From Eubacteriales bacterium (GTDB lineage: Bacteria; Bacillota_A; Clostridia; Christensenellales; Aristaeellaceae), in assembly GCA_029974855.1 (NCBI GenBank), contig JARKQO010000014.1:1-26068 (forward strand): a stretch of DNA of 26,068 nucleotides. Direction: 5' to 3'. Under the pieces are notes generated by a model. It made no database searches. It was not told where the DNA came from and was given only the letters and a program-made list of their open reading frames with translations. The position numbers were made by a program, and so were the translations under genes. Below are positions 3,234 through 15,960 of this stretch, one piece after another (position 1 is the first letter of the stretch; each line of letters opens with the position of its first letter).

Positions 3234-3494
3234 GTGAGCGAAATGAACGGCACGACCAAATTCTCGCCCATAGTGGAGGGAGGTCAGCGCGCCAGCGATA
3301 TCCTGGAGCATGTGTACCGGGCTTTGCAAGCCAAGGGCTACGACCCTGTGACCCAGCTGGTGGGGTACCTGATCTCCGGGGATCCCACCTACATCACCAG
3401 CTACGGCCAGGCCCGCAGCCTCATTTGCCGCCTGGAGCGGGACGAGATCATGGAGGAGCTGGTGCGGGTGTACCTCACCAGGATGGATAGTTGA
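3234..3494 (+). CDS. ireB: IreB family regulatory phosphoprotein
   Basis: An 86-residue protein matching the IreB (DUF965, B. subtilis YrzL) family along its whole length, with the hallmark core [20 protein letters not shown] and the ending YLTRMDS. In Enterococcus, IreB is a substrate of the Ser/Thr kinase IreK and affects cephalosporin tolerance (family knowledge). The conserved N-terminal threonine pair of the E. faecalis protein corresponds to the GTT segment near residue 6. GTG at 3234 is preferred because the GAGGGAG site about 10 nt upstream fits it better than the in-frame ATG at 3243. The stop overlaps the start of ruvX by 4 nt, and ireB next to ruvX is the standard Firmicutes order. 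Confidence 0.92.
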
Positions 3495-4273
3495 CCTTGG
3501 CGCCCCAGGGCCGCCTGATCGCTTTGGATGTGGGGGACGTGCGCATGGGGGTGGCCGTGTCCGACCCTACGGGCACCATCGCCCAGCCCTTGGAGGTATA
3601 CCGCCGGGTGGGCTACGGGCCGGACTGCCGGTATGTGCTCTCCTTGGCCCAGCGCTTTGAAACCCGGCGGATTTTGCTGGGCCTGCCCCTGAACATGGAC
3701 GGCAGCGCCGGGCCCCAGGCCGCCAAGGTGCGGGCCTTTGGGGAGGTGCTGGCCCAGGCGGGCCTCACCGTGCTGTACCAGGACGAGCGGATGACCACCG
3801 TCACCGCCCAGCGGGCGCTGGTGGAGGGCCGCATGCGCCGGGAGGACCGCCGCGATACCGTGGATAAAGTGGCCGCAGCCGTGATTTTGGAGCAGTTTTT
3901 GGCTGCGGAGGCCAAAGAAGAGCCAAGCCCTGGGGGCGGAAAAGAGGACACCATGGAACAGGACCAGGAGCGGATCATTCAACTGCAGGACGAGCAGGGC
4001 AACGACGTGGATTTTGAGCATCTCATGACCCTGGAGCATAACGGGAGCTATTATGTGGTGCTGGAGGCCATGGCGGACATGGAGGATTGCCTCCAGGGAG
4101 AGTCCATCATCCTGAAAATTGTCCAGGACGAAAGCGGCGAGGACACCTATGTGACCATCCAGGACGAGGCGGAGCTTCAGGCGGTGCTGGACAAGTGCAT
4201 CGCCGCCATGGAGGAGGAGGACGCCCGGGAGGACGGGGAGGAGGACCAGGAGGAGGACGACGGGGACCAGTAG
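3491..4273 (+). CDS. ruvX: RuvX/YqgF Holliday-junction resolvase fused in frame to a DUF1292 domain
   Basis: A single open frame of 260 codons starts at TTG 3491, overlapping the ireB stop (TTGA), with AGGATGG upstream. Residues 8-137 are a complete YqgF/RuvX RNase H-fold domain: [15 protein letters not shown] (D13), [11 protein letters not shown] (64-74), DER (98-100, acidic E99) and DKVAA (D125) supply the expected acidic residues. The family acts in 16S rRNA 5'-end processing and/or Holliday-junction cleavage. Residues 155-235 are a DUF1292 (YrzB-like) domain, ending in a very acidic tail. In most Firmicutes these are two genes. Here no stop separates them, yet ATG 3953 (residue 155) has its own AAAAGAGG site, so a separate 106-residue DUF1292 protein could also be made. 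Confidence 0.88.
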
Positions 4274-4313
4274 GGTTCCGGAGCCTTTCTTCTTTGCCAG
4301 TTTCAAAAGACGG

Positions 4314-4340
4314 AGACGGCGCCGGCCAAGCGCCGTCTTT
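4314..4340 (+). terminator. Hairpin after ruvX-DUF1292, weak terminator
   Basis: A 9-bp perfect stem, AGACGGCGC (4314-4322) and GCGCCGTCT (4330-4338), with a 7-nt loop, is followed by only three T. It could be a weak intrinsic terminator or an mRNA end-stabilising hairpin between the ireB operon and the TM2 gene. Confidence 0.5.
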
Positions 4341-4359
4341 GGGAATGAAGGAGTATCCG

Positions 4360-4818
4360 GTGACGATTTGCGCATACTGTAAAAGCCGCGTGTTTCCCAC
4401 GGACCGCCTGTGCCCAGCCTGCGGCAGCCGGGTGTTTGTGAACCTGGGGGAGAATGCCCCGGGTGCGGAAGCGCGGCCTGAGCCCCAGCCTCAGCCCTGG
4501 GCTCAGCCTCAGCCCCAACCCCAGTCCTGGGCTCAGCCCTGGGCCCAGGGCCCGGCCCCGGAGCCCCGGGTGGTGTACCGGACCATTCACCACAGGGTGT
4601 ATGCGGGGCCTGCGGAATCCCCCAGGAACCGGTGGCTGGCGCTGCTGCTGTGCCTGCTGGGGGGCGCTTTCGGGCTGCACCGCTTTTACGTGGGCAAGAT
4701 CGGTACCGGAATCCTGTATTTGCTCACAGGGGGCTTTTTCCTCCTGGGGCCCCTGGTGGACTTTTTCAGCATTCTGGCGGGCAGCTTCCGGGACGCGGAG
4801 GGGTTGCCCCTTCGCTAA
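4360..4818 (+). CDS. Zinc-ribbon and TM2 domain membrane protein
   Basis: The start GTG 4360 is preferred: AAGGAG sits 6 nt upstream, whereas the in-frame ATG 4345 has no such site. The product is 152 residues. Residues 1-30 contain two CxxC pairs (CAYC and CPAC), a zinc ribbon. Residues about 38-72 are a low-complexity linker of Pro-Gln-Trp-Ala units (PQPQPWAQ). The rest is a TM2 domain: two hydrophobic helices around the motif GGAFGLHRFYVGKIGTGILY, with an acidic exit (VDFF). TM2 proteins of unknown function are widespread in bacteria and often carry N-terminal zinc ribbons. It precedes a GNAT gene by 24 nt. Confidence 0.85.
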   Translation: MTICAYCKSRVFPTDRLCPACGSRVFVNLGENAPGAEARPEPQPQPWAQPQPQPQSWAQPWAQGPAPEPRVVYRTIHHRVYAGPAESPRNRWLALLLCLLGGAFGLHRFYVGKIGTGILYLLTGGFFLLGPLVDFFSILAGSFRDAEGLPLR

Positions 4819-9387: not shown

Positions 9388-9780
9388 ATGACGGATCAAC
9401 AGACAAAATCCCAGACCATTTCCCTTTCCCTGCCCGCGGACATGGAGTTCGCCTTGGTGGCCCGGCTGGCCCTGAACGGCTTTGGCCTGCTGGTGGGGCT
9501 GGATGTGGACCTGCTGGATGATTTGCGCACCGTCACCGACGAGTGCTGCGACTGCCTGCTGCACCAGGCGGTGTCTTTGACGGAAATCCTGATTTCCGCC
9601 CAGGTGCGGGAGGACAGGCTCCATTGCCGGTTTTGCGCCGTCCGGGGCCAGGAGCCCACCCGGGAGGAGCTGCAGGACATGGAGATCACCCGGGGCATCC
9701 TGGAAACCCTCTTTCCGGACGTACAGCTCCACTGCGATGAGGACGGGGTTTGTTGCATCGAGCTGTCGATGCCGCTGTAG
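9388..9780 (+). CDS. Degenerate RsbW/SpoIIAB-like GHKL-fold protein (anti-sigma candidate)
   Basis: A 130-residue protein starting at ATG 9388, with AAAGGAGG about 9 nt upstream. The fold order (strand ISLSLPADMEFALVARLALNGF, then the helix DLLDDLRTVTDECCDCLLHQ) matches the RsbW/SpoIIAB anti-sigma kinases. The helix aligns with the N box E-x3-N of those kinases: E52 is present, but the position of the Mg-ATP-binding Asn is Cys56. No DxGxG (G1) box can be found in the C-terminal half (CDEDGVCCIELSM). It is therefore probably not an active kinase. It sits 12 nt before a sigma-B/F/G factor, the standard place for the matching anti-sigma factor, so it may hold the sigma without phosphorylation. 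It is unusually cysteine-rich (C53, C54, C56 and others). Confidence 0.7.
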   Translation: MTDQQTKSQTISLSLPADMEFALVARLALNGFGLLVGLDVDLLDDLRTVTDECCDCLLHQAVSLTEILISAQVREDRLHCRFCAVRGQEPTREELQDMEITRGILETLFPDVQLHCDEDGVCCIELSMPL

Positions 9781-9792
9781 GCGGAGGGCGTG

Positions 9793-10527
9793 ATGAACGA
9801 CGAAGTGCTGTTGCCCATGCTGGACCGTTATGTGACCTCCCGCAGCCAGGAGCTGAGGGACAGCCTTTTCGAGGCTTTTTTGCCCATGGCCAGGTCCGTG
9901 GCCCGGCGCTTCAGCGGCCGGGGGGTGGAGACGGAGGATTTGGAGCAGGTGGCGGCCATGGCCTTGCTGAAGGCTTTGGAGCGCTTTGAGCCGGACCGGG
10001 GCTACCGCTTTGTGACCTACGCGGTGCCCACCATCACCGGGGACGTGCGCAACTACCTGCGGGACAAGGGCAGCGCCATGCGCATGCCCAGGGACGCCCG
10101 CCAGAAGCTCTACCACATGCAGCGGGAGCGGGACCGGTTTTCCCAGGAGCACCTGCGGGAGCCCAGCGCCAAGGAGCTGGCTTTGGCCATGCAGATGTCC
10201 CCGGACGATTTGCTGATGCTGCTGCAAATGCGGGACCACAGCGAAATCGCCTCCTTGGACAGCCCTTTGGCCGAGGAGGGCGGCGAGCTGGCGGATTTGC
10301 TGGGCCGGGAGGAAAGCGGATTCGACCAGGTGGAAAACAGCGCATGGATGCAGTGGGCTTTGAGCAAAGTGAATGATGTGGAGCGCAAGCTTTTGCTGCT
10401 GCGCTACCAGGAGCAGCTGGGGCAGCGGGAAACCGCCAGGCGCATGGGCGTGTCCCAGATGCAGGTGTCCCGGATCGAGCGGCGGATTTTGAACCGCCTG
10501 CGGGCCATTGAGCAGAGCGGGGCGTAA
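9793..10527 (+). CDS. RNA polymerase sigma factor, SigB/SigF/SigG family
   Basis: A 244-residue sigma-70 family factor. ATG 9793 is chosen over GTG 9790 because the GGAGGG site (9783-9788) would sit too close to the GTG. Region 2 is clear: EDLEQVAAMALLKALERF, then the -10-recognition block FVTYAVPTITGDVRNYLRD. Region 3 follows (REPSAKELALAMQMSPDDLL). Region 4 carries the helix-turn-helix QRETARRMGVSQMQVSRIERRIL. Length and architecture fit the SigB/F/G group, not primary or ECF factors. Its place upstream of ylmE-sepF-divIVA mirrors sigG in Bacillus, while a SpoIIAB-like neighbour mirrors sigF or sigB, so the exact identity is open. No SpoIIAA/RsbV gene is adjacent. Confidence 0.9.
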   Translation: MNDEVLLPMLDRYVTSRSQELRDSLFEAFLPMARSVARRFSGRGVETEDLEQVAAMALLKALERFEPDRGYRFVTYAVPTITGDVRNYLRDKGSAMRMPRDARQKLYHMQRERDRFSQEHLREPSAKELALAMQMSPDDLLMLLQMRDHSEIASLDSPLAEEGGELADLLGREESGFDQVENSAWMQWALSKVNDVERKLLLLRYQEQLGQRETARRMGVSQMQVSRIERRILNRLRAIEQSGA

Positions 10528-10594: not shown

Positions 10595-12109
10595 ATGCAA
10601 CCCCAGAACCCCCAGAACCCCCAGAACCCCCTTGGCGGCATGCAGCCCAACCAGCCCTTCGCGCCCTATACGCCGGAGCAGCTTTTGCAATGGCAGCAAT
10701 ACGGCATTCCCCAGCAGCAGTTCACCCCGGAAATTCTGTACCACATGCAGCAGCAGGGCCTGACCCAGCCCCAGGTGACCCCGGAGATGATGGCCCTGTG
10801 GCAGCAGCAGATGTACCAGATGCAGGTGCAGCAGATGCAGCAGGTACAGCAGATGCAAGGGGTGCAGCTTCCCCCGGCCCCCAGGCGGGCCCCGGGGCCC
10901 AGGGCCCGGGACCGGAGAGGCGGGGGCTTTGGGCGCTTTGTGCAAGCCCTGGCCATTTTGGGAGCCGTGGGCTTTTTGGGCTGGTTTATCTTGAACAACA
11001 CCCGGGGCGCGGCCCCCACCACTGCGGTGATCGAGATGGGCACCTTGGGCACCACCTACCGGGGGGACGCCTTGATCGTGCGCAATGAGACCGCCTACAG
11101 CGACGAGGGCGTGCAGAACATTGAATACGTGGCCCAGGAGGGCAGCGTGGTGTACCGGGGCAAGGTGCTGTGCCACGTGTATTCCACCGGGTACAGCACC
11201 AAGGAAATGGCGGTGCTCCAGGACTACCGGGACCAGATCAAGAACTACCAGCGCACCTTGCTCAAGGGCGAAACCGCCTACGACCAGAAGATGACCCAAA
11301 AGGAAAGCGATGTAATCCAGCGGGGCCTGGAGGTGCGCAAGCTGGTCCAGGGGGCCCGGGGCAACCTCATCAACCAGGAGGATATCCTGGACACGGCCAT
11401 CCAGCAGCGGCAGAACTATTTCCGCAGCAAGTATTCCTCGGACATGCGCCTCAACCGCCTCTACGACGACGAAACCACCCAGAAGCAGCGCATTGAAAGC
11501 TGGATCAAGCAGTGGCCCGCCACCCAGGAGGGCATCGTAAGCTTTTACACAGACGGCTACGAGCAGGCCCTGACCCCCATGGACTTTGAGAAATACACCC
11601 CCACCGAGGTCCGGGAGATGATCGGCGGCAAGCGGCCCGAGGGCAGCACCTCCTCCCGGGGCCGGGTGGATATCTGCCGCCTGGTGAAAAAGACCAACTA
11701 CGCGGTGCTGATGCTGATCAAAAACAACACCTGGAACCCGGTGGAGGGCTCCACCCACAAGCTGATGCTGGAGCAGTTTTCCAGCACCGTGGTAAACGCC
11801 CAGGTGCTGTCCTTCACCCGGGCCGGAGGCGAGCTGCTGGTGCGCCTGGCGGTGATGGGGGACGTGACCCCGGTGCTGTACATGCGCACCTGCCAGGCGG
11901 AGCTGGGGGAATACGTGGACGCCATGGTGGTGCCTTCCTCGGCCATTTTCGAGCAAAACGGCAGCAAGGGCGTGGTGATCATTGCCCAGGACAATCAGCA
12001 GCTTTTCGTGCCTGTGCAGATCATCCAGGAGAGCGGGGGAAAGGCCTATATTTCCGCCATTCAAACCGGGGTGCTCAGCGCGGGGCAGACGGTGAGGCTG
12101 TTTCGGTGA
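10595..12109 (+). CDS. HlyD-like membrane protein with Q/M-rich cytoplasmic tail (division-cluster associated)
   Basis: A 504-residue protein from ATG 10595 behind AAAGGAG. Residues 1-95 are low complexity: an (NPQ) repeat from three perfect 9-nt units (10602-10628), then a glutamine- and methionine-rich stretch (QQQMYQMQVQQMQQVQQM). A basic PRRAPGPRARDRR segment precedes a single membrane helix at about residues 115-133, giving an N-in orientation. The outer part has a short beta segment (VIEMGTLGTTYRGDALIVRNE), a long helical region (about 200-300) and C-terminal beta strands, the order of HlyD-type periplasmic adaptor proteins. A HlyD-like gene is often found before ylmE-sepF in Clostridia. 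No ABC transporter genes are adjacent, so an efflux role is doubtful; an envelope or division role is inferred. Confidence 0.75.
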   Translation: MQPQNPQNPQNPLGGMQPNQPFAPYTPEQLLQWQQYGIPQQQFTPEILYHMQQQGLTQPQVTPEMMALWQQQMYQMQVQQMQQVQQMQGVQLPPAPRRAPGPRARDRRGGGFGRFVQALAILGAVGFLGWFILNNTRGAAPTTAVIEMGTLGTTYRGDALIVRNETAYSDEGVQNIEYVAQEGSVVYRGKVLCHVYSTGYSTKEMAVLQDYRDQIKNYQRTLLKGETAYDQKMTQKESDVIQRGLEVRKLVQGARGNLINQEDILDTAIQQRQNYFRSKYSSDMRLNRLYDDETTQKQRIESWIKQWPATQEGIVSFYTDGYEQALTPMDFEKYTPTEVREMIGGKRPEGSTSSRGRVDICRLVKKTNYAVLMLIKNNTWNPVEGSTHKLMLEQFSSTVVNAQVLSFTRAGGELLVRLAVMGDVTPVLYMRTCQAELGEYVDAMVVPSSAIFEQNGSKGVVIIAQDNQQLFVPVQIIQESGGKAYISAIQTGVLSAGQTVRLFR

Positions 12110-12122
12110 GGTGAGTAAAGAG

Positions 12123-12866
12123 ATGAGGGGCCGGGAAGGCGACGCCCCCGGGGCCATGGAGCCCGGGGCCTTGCACCGTCAGGAGTTGGACCAGGAGACC
12201 CTGAAGCGGAACCTGTCGAACGTTTTGGACATTCTCTCCAAAAATTGTTACAAAAGTTTTGCGCCCCCCAAGCTCATCGCCGTAACCAAGGAGGTGGGCC
12301 CCCGGGAGATCCAGATGCTGGAAACCCTTGGCGTGCTTGACATTGCGGAAAACAGGGCCCAGGCCGCCCTGGAGAAGTTGCCAAAAATCGCGCCAGGGTT
12401 TCGTTTGCACTGGATTGGGAGGTTGCAAACCAACAAAGTTAAATATATAATAGGGTATGTCTGTCTGCTGCACACCTTGGACCGGCTGGAGCTGGCCCGG
12501 GAGGTGGACAAGCGGGCCGGGATGGCGGGCCGGGTGGTGCCCGCCTTGGTGCAGGTGAACATAGCGGGAGAAACGCAAAAGGCCGGGCTGGAGCCCTCCC
12601 GGGTGGAGGCCTTTCTGCGGCAGATGAAAGATTTTTCCAATCTCTCCGTCAGAGGGCTCATGGCGATGATGCCCCTTGACGCAAATGAGAAACTGCTGAC
12701 CGGATGGTTCCGGGATATGCGCACCCTTTTTGACCGCATGGGCCAGGAGGGGATCCAAGGGGTCCGCATGGAGGAGCTCTCCATGGGCATGTCCAACGAT
12801 TACGCCATTGCCGCCCGGGAGGGGGCCACCATGGTGCGGATCGGAACCGCGCTGTTCAGGCCCTAG
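12123..12866 (+). CDS. YggS/YlmE family PLP homeostasis protein
   Basis: A PLP-binding alanine-racemase-fold protein of about 247 residues. The PLP lysine lies in KLIAVTKEV (K56 from this start); HWIGRLQTNKVKYI and the phosphate-binding ending GMSNDYAIAAREGATMVRIGTALF are both typical of the family. These proteins have no known catalysis and control the free PLP pool. ATG 12123 is preferred because GAGGTGA lies 8 nt upstream; GTG 12111, adjacent to the previous stop, is an alternative that adds four residues. As in B. subtilis, it precedes sepF. The stretch around 12235-12460 is noticeably more AT-rich than its surroundings and contains a promoter-like motif. Confidence 0.92.
   Translation: MRGREGDAPGAMEPGALHRQELDQETLKRNLSNVLDILSKNCYKSFAPPKLIAVTKEVGPREIQMLETLGVLDIAENRAQAALEKLPKIAPGFRLHWIGRLQTNKVKYIIGYVCLLHTLDRLELAREVDKRAGMAGRVVPALVQVNIAGETQKAGLEPSRVEAFLRQMKDFSNLSVRGLMAMMPLDANEKLLTGWFRDMRTLFDRMGQEGIQGVRMEELSMGMSNDYAIAAREGATMVRIGTALFRP
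12423..12451 (+). promoter_or_regulatory. Candidate internal promoter inside ylmE
   Basis: TTGCAA (12423-12428), a 17-bp spacer and a perfect TATAAT (12446-12451) lie inside the ylmE coding frame, in a local AT-rich patch. If used, it would give sepF-ylmG-ylmH-divIVA transcription independent of the sigma/HlyD promoter. The bases also encode the conserved QTNKVKYI block, so chance is possible. Confidence 0.4.
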
Positions 12867-12900
12867 GGGTTGTGTTAGCTCAAAGTAGGAGGTTCCGCGA

Positions 12901-14256
12901 TTGGGTATGTTCCAAAAGGTAGGAAGTTGGCTGACGGATCAAAGCGAACGCTTCATCCGTGGAGAAGCCCGCCCCGCAGGCAGCTATTACGGCTCCAGCG
13001 AGGCGGAGCAGACCTATGGCCAAATGGGCGCCCAGCAGGCGGAACCGGGGGAGGACCCCCCCGACGTCCTGGAGGAAACCGGCCGCCGGCGGGCGGCGGA
13101 CCCCTTTCAGCGCTCCGGCAAGGATTACGGCGGCCGGGTTCCCTACCGCAGCCAGCGGGACATCCAGGCCCAGCAGGCGGCTTTGGAGGCGGAGCGGCAG
13201 CGGCAGCTTCGCCAGGAGCAGGCCCGGGCCCACGCCGCCCCGGCCCAGGGGGAGCCGGGGGCGTATGGACAGCCCCAGGGAGGATACGGGCAGCCCCAGG
13301 CTGCCGGCGGATATGGGCAGCCCCAGGGGGGCTTTGTCCCCCCGCAGCCCCAAACCGGATATACGCCCCAGCAGCCCGCTTCGGGCTACACCCCCCAGCA
13401 GGCCCAAGGCGGATATACACAACAGCAGGCCCCCGCCGGCTTTCCCCAGCAGCCCCAGGGGAGGCAGCCCCACCGGCCCGCCCAGACCCAGCCCGACACC
13501 AACGTGGTGCTGTTTCCCGGCATGCAGCAAGGCCCCGCCGGCAACGCCTACGCCCATGTGGAGTTTGTGGTGCTGCTGAAAAACCGCAACGAGTGCACCA
13601 AGGTCATCGAGTTCATCCGCAGCAACGCCTCGGTGTTTCTGAACATGGAGTTCATCGCCAGCGACACGGAGCGGCAGCGCTGCGTGGACACCCTGACCGG
13701 GGCCGCCTACACCTTGGGCTGCCAGCTGCTGAAAATCTCCCCCCGGTTCTTCTACCTGATCTCGCCCCCCTCGGTGCACGTGGTCATTGACCCGGCTATG
13801 CAGAAGTTCTCCGTGGGCTCGGAGGCCTACGCCGCCCGGCCCGCCTATGAGGCGGACCACGGGACCCAGCGCTTCGGGGGCTACGGGGCCGGGGGCTACG
13901 CCCAGGCCCAGAGCCAGGCCCAGCGGGAGACCCAAAGCTATGCCCGGCCCCAGAGCTATGCCCAGGCCCAGAACCAGGCCCAGCGGGAGACCCAGGGCTA
14001 CGGCCAGAGCTATGGCCAGCAGGGGGGCCAGGCCCAGAGCTATGCCCAGCCCCAGAGCTATGCCCGGCCCCAAGGCTATGCCCAGGCCCAGGAGGGCTTT
14101 GCCGCCGGGCAGTCCCCCGGGACCCAGGGCCAGGCCACGGCCCGCCGGGCGCCCGGAAGCTTTGGCAGCGTAATGGCGGGGGCCACCGGCGCCTACCCGG
14201 GGGCGGGCTCCTTCCACGGCGCCGGGGGGGCCTCTTTGCAACGGGAATACCCATAG
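12901..14256 (+). CDS. sepF: SepF cell-division protein with very long low-complexity arms
   Basis: SepF anchors and bundles FtsZ at the division site. TTG 12901 is chosen because AGGAGG (12887-12892) lies 8 nt upstream, while the in-frame ATG 12907 would be 14 nt away. Residues 1-14 (MGMFQKVGSWLTDQ) form the usual amphipathic membrane helix. The conserved SepF core lies at about residues 201-297 (VVLFPGM..., VIEFIRSNASVFLNMEFI..., CVDTLTGAAYTLGCQLLKIS). The whole protein is 451 residues against about 150 in B. subtilis. The excess is a Gly-Tyr-Gln-Pro-rich N-terminal arm (about 90-200, units like GGYGQPQ) and a Gln-Ala-Tyr-rich C-terminal arm (about 305-451, units like SYAQAQ), both probably disordered. 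It is followed by ylmG, as expected. Confidence 0.9.
   Translation: MGMFQKVGSWLTDQSERFIRGEARPAGSYYGSSEAEQTYGQMGAQQAEPGEDPPDVLEETGRRRAADPFQRSGKDYGGRVPYRSQRDIQAQQAALEAERQRQLRQEQARAHAAPAQGEPGAYGQPQGGYGQPQAAGGYGQPQGGFVPPQPQTGYTPQQPASGYTPQQAQGGYTQQQAPAGFPQQPQGRQPHRPAQTQPDTNVVLFPGMQQGPAGNAYAHVEFVVLLKNRNECTKVIEFIRSNASVFLNMEFIASDTERQRCVDTLTGAAYTLGCQLLKISPRFFYLISPPSVHVVIDPAMQKFSVGSEAYAARPAYEADHGTQRFGGYGAGGYAQAQSQAQRETQSYARPQSYAQAQNQAQRETQGYGQSYGQQGGQAQSYAQPQSYARPQGYAQAQEGFAAGQSPGTQGQATARRAPGSFGSVMAGATGAYPGAGSFHGAGGASLQREYP
13896..13994 (+). repeat. 60-nt period tandem repeat in the sepF 3' arm
   Basis: The segment 13896-13934 recurs almost exactly at 13956-13994 (period 60 nt, 20 residues), encoding YAQAQxQAQRETQ units; more degenerate copies follow to about 14100. 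It shows that the C-terminal arm of SepF grew by tandem duplication. Confidence 0.85.
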
Positions 14257-14267: not shown

Positions 14268-14312
14268 CAAGGATGAATGATACAAAAGCGAGGGAAACGG
14301 GAGGAATCACGG

Positions 14313-14603
14313 ATGTTGGTAGGACTTTTCAACCTGGTGTTCACCCTCTTGGGCTGGGCGCTGACGCTGCTGCAATGGGCGCTGGTGCTGTATGTGATCC
14401 TGTCCTGGGTGCTGCCCCAGCACAAGTACACCCAGCTGCTGGGCAAATACGCGCAGATTCTGCTGGCCCCCGTGCGCAAGGGGATGGAGCGGTATTTGCC
14501 CCAGCTGCGCTCCGTGGGCATGGATTTGTCCCCGGTGGCGCTGTGGCTGCTGATTGCCGTGGCCCGCTGGCTGCTGGGGCTGCTGCGGGGCATTTTGCTG
14601 TAA
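14313..14603 (+). CDS. YggT family membrane protein (YlmG)
   Basis: A 96-residue protein with two long hydrophobic segments separated by a polar loop with the family pattern (ILSWVLPQHKYTQLLGKYAQILLAPVRKGMERYLP). ATG 14313 is chosen because GGGAGGAA lies about 8 nt upstream; a frame opening at 14277 would add 12 polar residues and lacks a binding site. YlmG/YggT proteins lie in division clusters of Firmicutes, cyanobacteria and chloroplasts and influence membrane or nucleoid distribution (family knowledge). The stop TAA abuts the next ATG directly. Confidence 0.9.
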   Translation: MLVGLFNLVFTLLGWALTLLQWALVLYVILSWVLPQHKYTQLLGKYAQILLAPVRKGMERYLPQLRSVGMDLSPVALWLLIAVARWLLGLLRGILL

Positions 14604-15365
14604 ATGTCCGCCAAGGACGAGGCGCTGGCCCCCCGGCGGCTGGAGGAGCTGGCGGAGCGGGCCGGGGCCTCGGGCCAGGCCTGCTTCAGCCCCTTTTTGA
14701 CCCCCGCCGAGGCGGAGCTGGCCCGGCAGGCGGCCCGGAAGGCCGGGGTGACCCTGACCCTGTTTGGGGGCTATCCCGAGGCGGAGCGGCAGATGGGGGG
14801 CTTTGGCCCGGAGCCTTTGCCGGGGGAGGCCTTCCCCCTGGGGGCCCTGGCCCTGCGCTGGCCCCGCCAAACGGCCCCCACCCACCGGGATTTGCTGGGA
14901 AGCGTGATGGGCCTGGGGCTCCAGCGGCAGTGGCTGGGGGACATCGTGCTGGAAAAGGACTGGGCGGCGCTCTTTGCCACCCGGGCCATGGCCCGGCATA
15001 TCGCGGATCATCTGGGACAAGCAGGAAAAGTGAGCCTTCAGGTAGAACTTCTGAAGGAGCTGCCTGTGATGGCGGCCCCGGAGGGTACGCCCTTCCGGGA
15101 TACGGTGCCTTCCCTGCGCCTGGACGCGCTGGTGGCCAGCGGCCTGAGCCTGTCCAGGGCCAAGGCGGCGGCGCTGATTGAGGCGGGGCAGGTAAAGCTG
15201 CGCCATGTGCAAACCCTGCGCCCGGACGCCCGGGTCCAGGAGGGGGACATGATCTCCGTGCGGGGCATGGGGCGCGTGCAGCTCAGCCAGGTGGGCAAGC
15301 CCACCCGCAAGGATCGGTTGCCGGTGCTGTTGCTGCGTTTTGGAATCGGGCCATCCCCGGAGTAG
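14604..15365 (+). CDS. YlmH family S4-domain RNA-binding protein
   Basis: A 253-residue protein whose ATG follows the ylmG stop without a gap, so translation is probably coupled. Residues about 20-100 contain the YlmH N-terminal fold (PFLTPAEAELARQAARKAGVTLTLFGGYPEAERQM). The C-terminal third is an S4 RNA-binding domain (LRLDALVASGLSLSRAKAAALIEAGQVKL, then VQEGDMISVRGMGRVQL). In B. subtilis and S. pneumoniae, YlmH binds the ribosome and has been linked to rescue of stalled peptidyl-tRNA complexes (family knowledge). The region is extremely GC-rich. It ends 28 nt before divIVA. Confidence 0.92.
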   Translation: MSAKDEALAPRRLEELAERAGASGQACFSPFLTPAEAELARQAARKAGVTLTLFGGYPEAERQMGGFGPEPLPGEAFPLGALALRWPRQTAPTHRDLLGSVMGLGLQRQWLGDIVLEKDWAALFATRAMARHIADHLGQAGKVSLQVELLKELPVMAAPEGTPFRDTVPSLRLDALVASGLSLSRAKAAALIEAGQVKLRHVQTLRPDARVQEGDMISVRGMGRVQLSQVGKPTRKDRLPVLLLRFGIGPSPE

Positions 15366-15393
15366 CCGGTTGGATAGGAAAGGAGCGAATCTC

Positions 15394-15960
15394 ATGGGCA
15401 TCACCGTTTCGGACATTGAACAAAAAGAGTTTGCATTCAAGGGACCGGGCTATGATCCCTATGATGTGGATTCATACCTGGATCAGATCTGCGATGAAAT
15501 GATCGCCATGCAGGACCGCATCGACGCCCTGGAGGCGGAGCTCAGGCAGGCCAAGGCGGCCCTGGAGGCCAGCCAGGACGCCGTGCGGCCCATGCCCCAG
15601 GAGGTGACCCGGGCGGCCACCCCCGCCCCGGTGGCCAAAACCAGCGAAACCCTGGAGAGCATTTTGGTCAGCGCCCAGCGGGTGTGCGACGAGGCCATCG
15701 AAAGCGCCAACAAGCGCGCCGGGGAGATCCTGAGCGAGGCCCAGAAAAAGGCCGGGGAGGTTACCGACGCCGCCCAGGAGGAGAAGCTGACCTTGGAGAA
15801 GGAGCTTCAGAGCCTGAAAGCCGCCGCCGGGGATTTCCGCAAGCGCTTTGTGAGCCTGCTGGAGGAGCACAAGGGCCTGCTGGAGGCCAGCAAGGATTTG
15901 TTTGAGGCCGGCAACGGCCCGGGGGCCGGGGACGCCGGCTCTAAAAAGGATCGGAAATAG
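15394..15960 (+). CDS. divIVA: DivIVA domain protein
   Basis: A 188-residue coiled-coil protein starting at ATG 15394 after AAAGGAG. The N-terminal DivIVA motif (ITVSDIEQKEFAFKGPGYDPYDVDSYLDQI) is intact, including the FxxxxxGYDxxxVDxFL pattern, with Tyr in place of the last Phe. A first coiled coil spans about residues 30-70, then a Pro/Ala/Thr linker, then a long coiled coil (about 90-180). The protein recognises curved membrane at poles and septa and recruits division or wall-growth factors. It closes the ylm block, as in other Firmicutes, and a strong hairpin follows. Confidence 0.95.
   Translation: MGITVSDIEQKEFAFKGPGYDPYDVDSYLDQICDEMIAMQDRIDALEAELRQAKAALEASQDAVRPMPQEVTRAATPAPVAKTSETLESILVSAQRVCDEAIESANKRAGEILSEAQKKAGEVTDAAQEEKLTLEKELQSLKAAAGDFRKRFVSLLEEHKGLLEASKDLFEAGNGPGAGDAGSKKDRK

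Follow-up and report, generated by a model that had tools for sequence, protein, structure and literature searches.

A long-armed SepF in a Christensenellales lineage and the correlation of its arm length with that of the FtsZ linker

The stretch of DNA analyzed here (26,068 nucleotides, referred to as the window) carries a ylm-type division cluster. In order, this cluster encodes a HlyD-like membrane protein with a Gln-rich N-terminal tail (10595–12109, PF12700), YggS (ylmE-type; 12111–12866, TIGR00044), SepF (12901–14256), YggT (14277–14603, PF02325), a YlmH-type S4 protein (14604–15365, PF17774 and PF01479) and DivIVA (15340–15960, PF05103), the true start of which is probably located 3′ of the ORF start. 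All these genes, and all the features described below within sepF, are on the forward strand. The sepF gene was assigned from its ORF, its PF04472 match and its fold. Its reading frame is intact, encodes a long-armed variant of 451 aa and starts with a TTG codon preceded by an AGGAGG Shine-Dalgarno sequence (12887–12892). A gene for a SigB/SigF/SigG-type sigma factor (9790–10527) lies upstream of the division cluster and is itself preceded by a 130-aa ORF (9388–9780) without Pfam match at E 0.001. One ORF (3491–4273), perhaps a fusion, combines RuvX and DUF1292 domains, which are usually encoded by separate genes elsewhere. A TM2-domain protein (4087–4818) carries a short Pro/Gln/Trp-rich stretch (QPQPQPWAQPQPQPQSWAQPWAQ) ahead of its membrane part.

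The PF04472 SepF profile matches residues 226–294 (E 1e-10, 42.1 bits for a cut-off of 27). An AlphaFold2 model built on an alignment of 59 sequences (mean pLDDT 54, pTM 0.32) places the elements of the core between residues 208 and 288, and Foldseek assigned to this core the fold of solved SepF structures (3zih_A, E 3.9e-05, TMt 0.82; also 6sat and 3p04), among which 6sat is SepF with the FtsZ C-terminal domain. A profile search likewise matched the SepF entries 8hzt, 8hzq and 3zih, while phmmer with the whole 451-aa protein against the PDB and a search against NCBIfam both gave no match at E 0.001. From Pfam, Foldseek and conservation we delimit the core to residues 199–300 (13495–13800), which is 0.88 conserved (conservation meaning here and below the share of the most frequent residue in a column, averaged over the segment in the 59 sequences). 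The initial annotation was therefore right to describe a normal SepF core, given the 42.1-bit match and the fold shared with 3zih. In C. glutamicum SepF, the residues contacting FtsZ include K125 and F131 (PMC7118173, excerpts). Both B. subtilis and C. glutamicum SepF resemble the window protein in having an N-terminal helix, a linker and a core, the modeled core matching 3zih and 6sat, and in lying in a ylm-type cluster with yggS, yggT, ylmH and divIVA.

What differs is the length. SepF of B. subtilis and C. glutamicum is around 150 aa and that of M. smithii 149 aa (PMC8178401, excerpts), and the median length for 30 order-level SepFs is 169 aa, so that the approximately threefold excess reported in the initial annotation is confirmed. 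The linker between the N-terminal helix and the core is about 180 residues long, compared to about 50 in the B. subtilis/C. glutamicum type (PMC7118173, excerpts), and the window protein differs further by an arm of about 150 residues past the core and by conserved islands within its arms. In C. glutamicum, the core is followed by a C-terminal helix alpha3 (PMC7118173, excerpts). At this place, the model of the window protein has a three-residue helical turn (307–309) of low pLDDT, and alpha3 is not seen in this low-confidence part of the model. Conservation just past the core is 0.66 in the 59 sequences.

The N-terminal helix region (residues 1–21; 12901–12963) is 0.72 conserved and contains the invariant W10. 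A helix is predicted at residues 4–16 with a modest pLDDT of about 60, and its hydrophobic moment ranks 19 of 439 windows. The amphipathic N-terminus described as normal in the initial annotation is thus kept. The two arms extend over residues 22–198 and 301–451, approximately. The N arm, trimmed to 178 residues, is composed of 20% Gln, 15% Gly, 13.5% Ala, 13% Pro, 8% Arg and 6% Tyr, and the C arm, trimmed to 151 residues, of 19% Ala, 18% Gln, 17% Gly, 9% Tyr and 9% Ser. Asn is nearly absent (0% and 0.7%, respectively). A pLDDT below 50 was obtained for 249 of the 451 residues, and a FoldIndex-type charge-hydropathy score gave −0.19 and −0.08 for the arms and 0.30 for the core; our disorder call is based on these two measures.

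Within the arms, several segments are conserved. A YYxSxEAEQxYG island (residues 28–43; 12982–13029) is 0.59 conserved and includes a short predicted helix (34–39). The DPF..YGGRVPYRS island (residues 66–88; 13096–13164) reaches 0.73, with 11 columns at or above 0.9, and R79, P81, Y82 and S84 are invariant in the 59 sequences. The corresponding pattern [GR]RxPYxS is present in 117 of the 120 listed homologues, two of the three exceptions being without N-terminus. It is followed by a predicted helix (residues 85–111; 13153–13233), which is confident according to its 10-residue pLDDT blocks (80, 93 and 87), though the sequence of residues 89–111 is only 0.42 conserved. Near the C-terminus, the SFGSVMAGATGAY island (residues 419–435; 14155–14205) is 0.59 conserved with 5% gaps and carries SFGSVMAG in the window. 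The YY-island pattern is found in 39 of the 59 sequences and M[AS]G in 35 of 59; the stricter SFGxxMAG pattern is found in 5 of 12 analyzed genomes among G001–G013. Between these islands lie a variable Q/G/P/Y spacer in the N arm (residues 112–198; 13234–13494; 0.25 conserved, 56% gaps), with 27-nt repeats at 13317–13451, and a variable Q/A/G/Y spacer in the C arm (residues 321–418; 13861–14154; 0.24 conserved, 53% gaps), whose DNA is made of 12- and 18-nt repeats. These C-arm repeats differ even in P0001, a homologue with a core 99% identical to that of the window. Judged from the alignment, the arms consist of short conserved islands alternating with fast-changing, length-variable repeat spacers. 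The description of the arms as low-complexity and disordered in the initial annotation thus holds in part: they are real, lineage-wide and mostly predicted to be disordered, but they contain conserved islands and the confident helix 85–111.

The resemblance of the arms to prion-like sequences also needs to be qualified. They are long, polar, of low complexity and low charge, and rich in Gln and in Tyr/Gly. This composition, which we take to be FUS-like, is accompanied in the trimmed arms of the window by 9 occurrences of [GS]Y[GASTV]Q for 0.5 expected from shuffles, and the simpler [GS]Y exceeds expectation in many, though not all, of 20 relatives. However, the arms are Q/G/A/P/Y-rich and not Q/N-rich. 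As in bacterial prion-like proteins, among which the Rho of a Clostridium species is reportedly counted, a protein that is conserved in other respects carries polar low-complexity sequence, but the arms differ from them in being Gln-rich with hardly any Asn. A word search of the main text of a survey of bacterial prion-like candidates found neither FtsZ nor SepF (PMC4606120, main text).

To place the window protein among its relatives, homologues were searched with scoring on the core, within 0.55–1.75 times the length of the window SepF. Of 192 candidates, 159 matched; the 120 homologues listed among them range from 253 to 510 aa with a median of 321.5. Since this length range excluded short proteins, short SepFs were searched separately with a core profile. 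This gave 13 matches; of the eight that were read, most are pieces with a terminus falling within the core or within one of the arms, and one of 93 aa (P0128) could be a truly short SepF. A scan of genome contigs showed a long SepF in 20/20 related loci, two of which (L002 and L010) have frames that run off the locus and hence incomplete C arms. Codon-position GC of the sepF ORF is 0.72/0.53/0.85, and because of this profile and of the homologues we consider the ORF truly coding. A frameshift or a wrong start is ruled out by the long homologues, the 20/20 long loci, the coding GC and the conserved N-terminal helix and motifs. The initial annotation had proposed to compare arm length among homologues, as done here, and had itself considered that close relatives might lack the arms because of a frameshift in this genome, or that translation might start close to the core. 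Neither is the case: the relatives carry the arms, and a start near the core would leave out an N-terminal helix and motifs that are conserved.

According to our start rule, a TTG start behind a strong Shine-Dalgarno sequence is found in 20/20 loci of the lineage. In 12 of them no ATG or GTG is present in the next four codons, and a later start would therefore cut into the helix; the other 8, as well as the window, have an ATG or GTG two codons downstream of the TTG. Because overproduction of SepF is lethal in B. subtilis (PMC5717166, excerpts), the weak TTG start may damp the SepF dose, possibly as a conserved translational damping. Among the 30 order-level SepFs, 26 have an ATG start, versus TTG in the lineage of the window.

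The nearest named relatives of the window, which belongs to a group of gut bacteria that are uncultured, are metagenome-assembled genomes, namely a Clostridiales bacterium (locus L001 in genome G001, SepF core 96% identical) and Candidatus Limiplasma, which NCBI places in Eubacteriales incertae sedis. An order-level draw gave a SepF match in 123/151 genomes, most stop-to-stop frames being about 100–260 aa, and a family draw gave one in 107/120 genomes, from 111 to 502 aa. On a poorly resolved tree of SepF cores (143 rows, 80 columns), two changes are required for the long-C label, compared to about 46 with shuffled labels. TTG is the start codon in the clade of the window; in the remaining long-C members it is mostly ATG, with TTG in L146. 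One distant order-level SepF (L100 in G054) has an N arm built of nearly identical repeats (RESGTQRYSYPNASEPK) that seems to have expanded independently.

The distribution of the islands bears on the idea that they primarily recruit partners, e.g. FtsA, DivIVA, YggT, the HlyD-like protein or cell-wall enzymes, any match with FtsZ being secondary. The four invariant residues of the GGRVPYRS island and its conservation (0.73 for 0.88 in the core) are what such a role would predict, and sepF is found beside the HlyD-like gene in 20/20 loci. However, conservation is lower in the other islands (0.59), and the only genome outside the TTG clade with the GGRVPYRS pattern is G178 (short-C), long-C members there being devoid of it. 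The islands therefore cannot account for arm length in the wider group, and we consider recruitment as the primary role of the arms very unlikely.

We then compared the arms with FtsZ, for which all data come from relatives, the nearest to the window being G001. In 13/13 relatives (G001–G013, loci L168–L185), the segment after the FtsZ core, i.e., the linker and the C-terminal peptide, is 170–222 aa long. These tails are Q/M/P/G/Y-rich, share the recurring islands DWTRSFG, YEDMSF and MEYGQ and end in the usual C-terminal peptide (LGVPAFLRRP or LGIPAFLRRP, the P varying). SepF as the only anchor of FtsZ is ruled out, as an FtsA-type match was obtained in 13/13 relatives, 11 of them above the family cut-off; the same was true of 120/120 family genomes, 16 above cut-off, where weak matches may be paralogues.

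Within the family draw, the length of the SepF frame is correlated with that of FtsZ (rho 0.63, n 100) but not with that of FtsA (rho 0.05, n 102). Six FtsZ rows (G249, G214, G202, G263, G259 and G228) were omitted here, being cut by a contig end, fragmentary, interrupted by a stop or unusually short in frame. We do not rely on the order-level values (rho 0.46 with n 111; rho 0.36 with n 103 once the family is removed), for which four further rows were left out, as was G117 by oversight. Segments were then measured individually: of 100 FtsZ loci inspected, 99 could be parsed, and 96 with a usable SepF were retained. Total SepF arm length correlates with FtsZ tail length in these 96 genomes (rho 0.75). 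Much of this raw correlation is due to one deep split between long-C and short-C genomes. Phylogenetic contrasts, computed on a tree of FtsZ cores only, retained the association (r 0.37, p 0.00017, n 96), with r 0.28 (p 0.005) for the C arm alone and r 0.20 (p 0.056) for the N arm alone. The length controls gave no such result, whether FtsA (r 0.10, p 0.33, n 88) or SSB (r −0.05, p 0.68, n 81). Contrast signs agree at 0.61 for arms and FtsZ tail and likewise at 0.61 for the arms–FtsA control; the length result therefore rests on large contrasts. Within the 54 long-C genomes, total arms and FtsZ tail remain modestly correlated (r 0.37, p 0.005), single arms not being significant (N arm, r 0.15, p 0.27; C arm, r 0.23, p 0.089), and in the 42 short-C genomes the N arm and the FtsZ tail are uncorrelated (r 0.16, p 0.32).

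The two proteins also differ in chemistry between these groups. From the 42 short-C to the 54 long-C genomes, the medians of the SepF arms go from 17.5 to 5.4% Arg, from 5.0 to 22.3% Gln and from 34.5 to 14.2% charged residues, and those of the FtsZ tails from 13.2 to 4.7%, from 5.5 to 12.7% and from 35.1 to 16.9%, respectively. One deep transition dominates this shift. SSB tails do not show it (Gln 6.7 vs 3.9%, Arg 4.7 vs 4.5% in short-C vs long-C) in a control of 41 genomes (21 short-C and 20 long-C sequences). In contrasts between arms and FtsZ tails, Arg gave r 0.31 (p 0.002), still 0.31 with GC as covariate, and Gln r 0.25 (p 0.013), or 0.23 (p 0.028) with GC; no correlation was detected for total charge (r 0.10, p 0.32). 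The composition of the FtsZ core does not follow the arms, with r −0.09 for Arg and, of opposite sign, r −0.24 (p 0.018) for Gln. With these SSB and GC controls, a genome-wide drift of disordered composition is less likely.

These data allow us to evaluate whether the arms could be entropic spacers only, which extend the reach from the membrane through the core to FtsZ and space the docking motifs, with chemistry minor and the FtsZ linker answering the same need. The poor conservation of the spacers, which are over half gaps while the islands stay, is consistent with this, as are the length correlation, the strongest of the contrast results, and the lack of correlation of total charge after contrasts. 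Against it, Arg and Gln of the arms and FtsZ tails co-vary after contrasts where FtsZ core and SSB tails do not follow, and the window arms show an excess of [GS]Y[GASTV]Q. We therefore regard a purely entropic role as possible, yet rather less than likely.

Immediately upstream of yggS, the HlyD-like protein of the window has about 117 residues ahead of its first hydrophobic stretch, with a Gln fraction of 0.34 in the richest 80. This tail (10595–10945) is Gln/Met/Pro-rich and contains the repeats TPEQLLQWQ, TPEILYHMQ and TPEMMALWQ; TPEQxxQWQ-type repeats are found in several homologues. From its position ahead of the first hydrophobic stretch, the tail is probably cytoplasmic. A HlyD-like homologue lies upstream of sepF in 20/20 loci, and a tail of 105–257 residues with 16–33% Gln precedes the hydrophobic stretch in 19/19 loci covering that part (L009 is cut at the contig end, and the tail length of L010 includes a doubtful early start). 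The protein was detected in 115/120 family genomes, with a median frame of 530 aa in long-C and 411 aa in short-C genomes and a raw rho of 0.73 with the arms. After contrasts, its length is marginally correlated with the SepF arms (r 0.20, p 0.057) and not correlated with the FtsZ tail (r 0.14, p 0.20); for HlyD and SSB, rows containing a stop, a fragment or a split match were excluded, which leaves 88 and 81 genomes, respectively. Some long-C genomes (G170, G191, G219, G241 and G110) have short HlyD frames of 405–422 aa.

We also ranked ORFs by the Gln content of their richest 80-residue window, keeping those that passed a codon-position filter. In G001 (267 kept ORFs), the HlyD-like protein and FtsZ hold the two most Gln-rich windows; in G005 (256 kept ORFs), FtsZ is first and the HlyD-like protein third; in the window (21 kept ORFs), the HlyD-like protein is first and SepF second. 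The rank of SepF comes from the window set alone, as the G001 and G005 sets kept antisense ORFs over SepF instead. Survey rows that look antisense are 14307–15440 minus in the window, L001 10526 minus, L008 8780 minus and perhaps L189 11126 minus.

This survey is relevant to drift, according to which slippage-prone repeats expanded without selection in a tolerant lineage and the FtsZ match reflects shared ancestry or a lineage-wide shift of disordered composition. The 12-, 18- and 27-nt repeats of the spacer DNA, the different repeats of the near-identical P0001, the single deep split, which leaves few independent events behind the match, and the Gln-rich tail of the HlyD-like protein all fit such a process. 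On the other hand, the islands within the arms are conserved, SSB length and tail composition and FtsA length do not follow, the Arg result is the same with the GC covariate, and 20% Gln in any 80 residues is reached by only 5/267 kept ORFs in G001 and 4/256 in G005. We consider drift unlikely.

We propose instead, with a probability of slightly less than one half, that the window SepF is a genuine lineage-specific variant whose arms are motif-bearing tethers compatible with the FtsZ linker. The usual layout is kept, with an N-terminal helix, a linker and a core folding like FtsZ-binding SepF, except that the linker has about 180 residues and that a C arm of about 150 residues is added. That the SepF arms and the FtsZ linker appear to have changed together, in length as well as in chemistry, suggests that the division ring is held together in a manner particular to this lineage. 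The core and the FtsZ C-terminal peptide would still anchor FtsZ. Through its arms, SepF would in addition make weak multivalent contacts to the FtsZ linker and perhaps to the HlyD-like tail, and in the resulting cohesive layer filaments would be bundled and their distance to the membrane would be variable. The islands, in particular GGRVPYRS and SFGxxMAG, are candidate docking motifs for partners, and the helix 85–111 may self-associate or bind. The conserved motifs, this predicted helix and the matching FtsZ change had been missed in the initial annotation.

Condensation of the arms is plausible by analogy, on the basis of the linked change of the FtsZ linker and of the precedent of A. tumefaciens, where a long FtsZ linker favors condensates and widens the conditions for foci (PMC13170164, excerpts). 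The functional interpretation given in the initial annotation is thus partly supported, its other two suggestions, a brush at the septum and a control of ring size, being speculative. The long-linker FtsZ of A. tumefaciens and C. crescentus is similar to the present case in that a Z-ring protein carries a much lengthened disordered segment. In Alphaproteobacteria, however, the long region is on FtsZ, whereas in the lineage of the window both the anchor and the filament are long and similar in composition. The word SepF is absent from the main text of the A. tumefaciens condensate paper (PMC13170164, main text). Searches of the literature on SepF linkers, condensates and coevolution, mostly open-access and at the level of titles and abstract openings, returned no long-armed SepF and no matching of SepF and FtsZ arms, and a search for HlyD, sepF and divIVA together returned no paper. 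What is new here is that SepF arm length follows FtsZ linker length and that both share a shift from Arg-rich to Gln-rich sequence. The FtsZ linker varies greatly between bacteria, for reasons that are unclear; if anchor arms track its length and chemistry, this variation is in part a matching problem between partners. The family offers a natural series for studying it, since the same SepF–FtsZ pair occurs there in a version with short, Arg-rich tails and in one with long, Gln-rich tails. Condensate-type thinking about the Z-ring, so far applied to the long FtsZ of Alphaproteobacteria, would thereby extend to Bacillota in which both anchor and filament are long, and the strong conservation of GGRVPYRS points to a further divisome partner.

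A broader version of the tether reading, which we hold to be doubtful, is that the Z-ring sits in a mixed Gln/Tyr/Pro-rich disordered layer made of SepF arms, FtsZ linker and HlyD-like tail, with chemistries matched by selection. Anchor and filament would then co-evolve via their disordered regions and not only via the core and the C-terminal peptide, and the ring would be coupled to the envelope via the HlyD-like protein.

In G001, a membrane-protein-like ORF (L215:13684–14781; no Pfam match at E 0.01) has a Gln/Trp-rich stretch (AFTPQQLALWQAQQQWQQQ) resembling the repeats of the HlyD-like protein, and lies directly 5′ of genes for an FtsW/RodA-family protein and a penicillin-binding transpeptidase.
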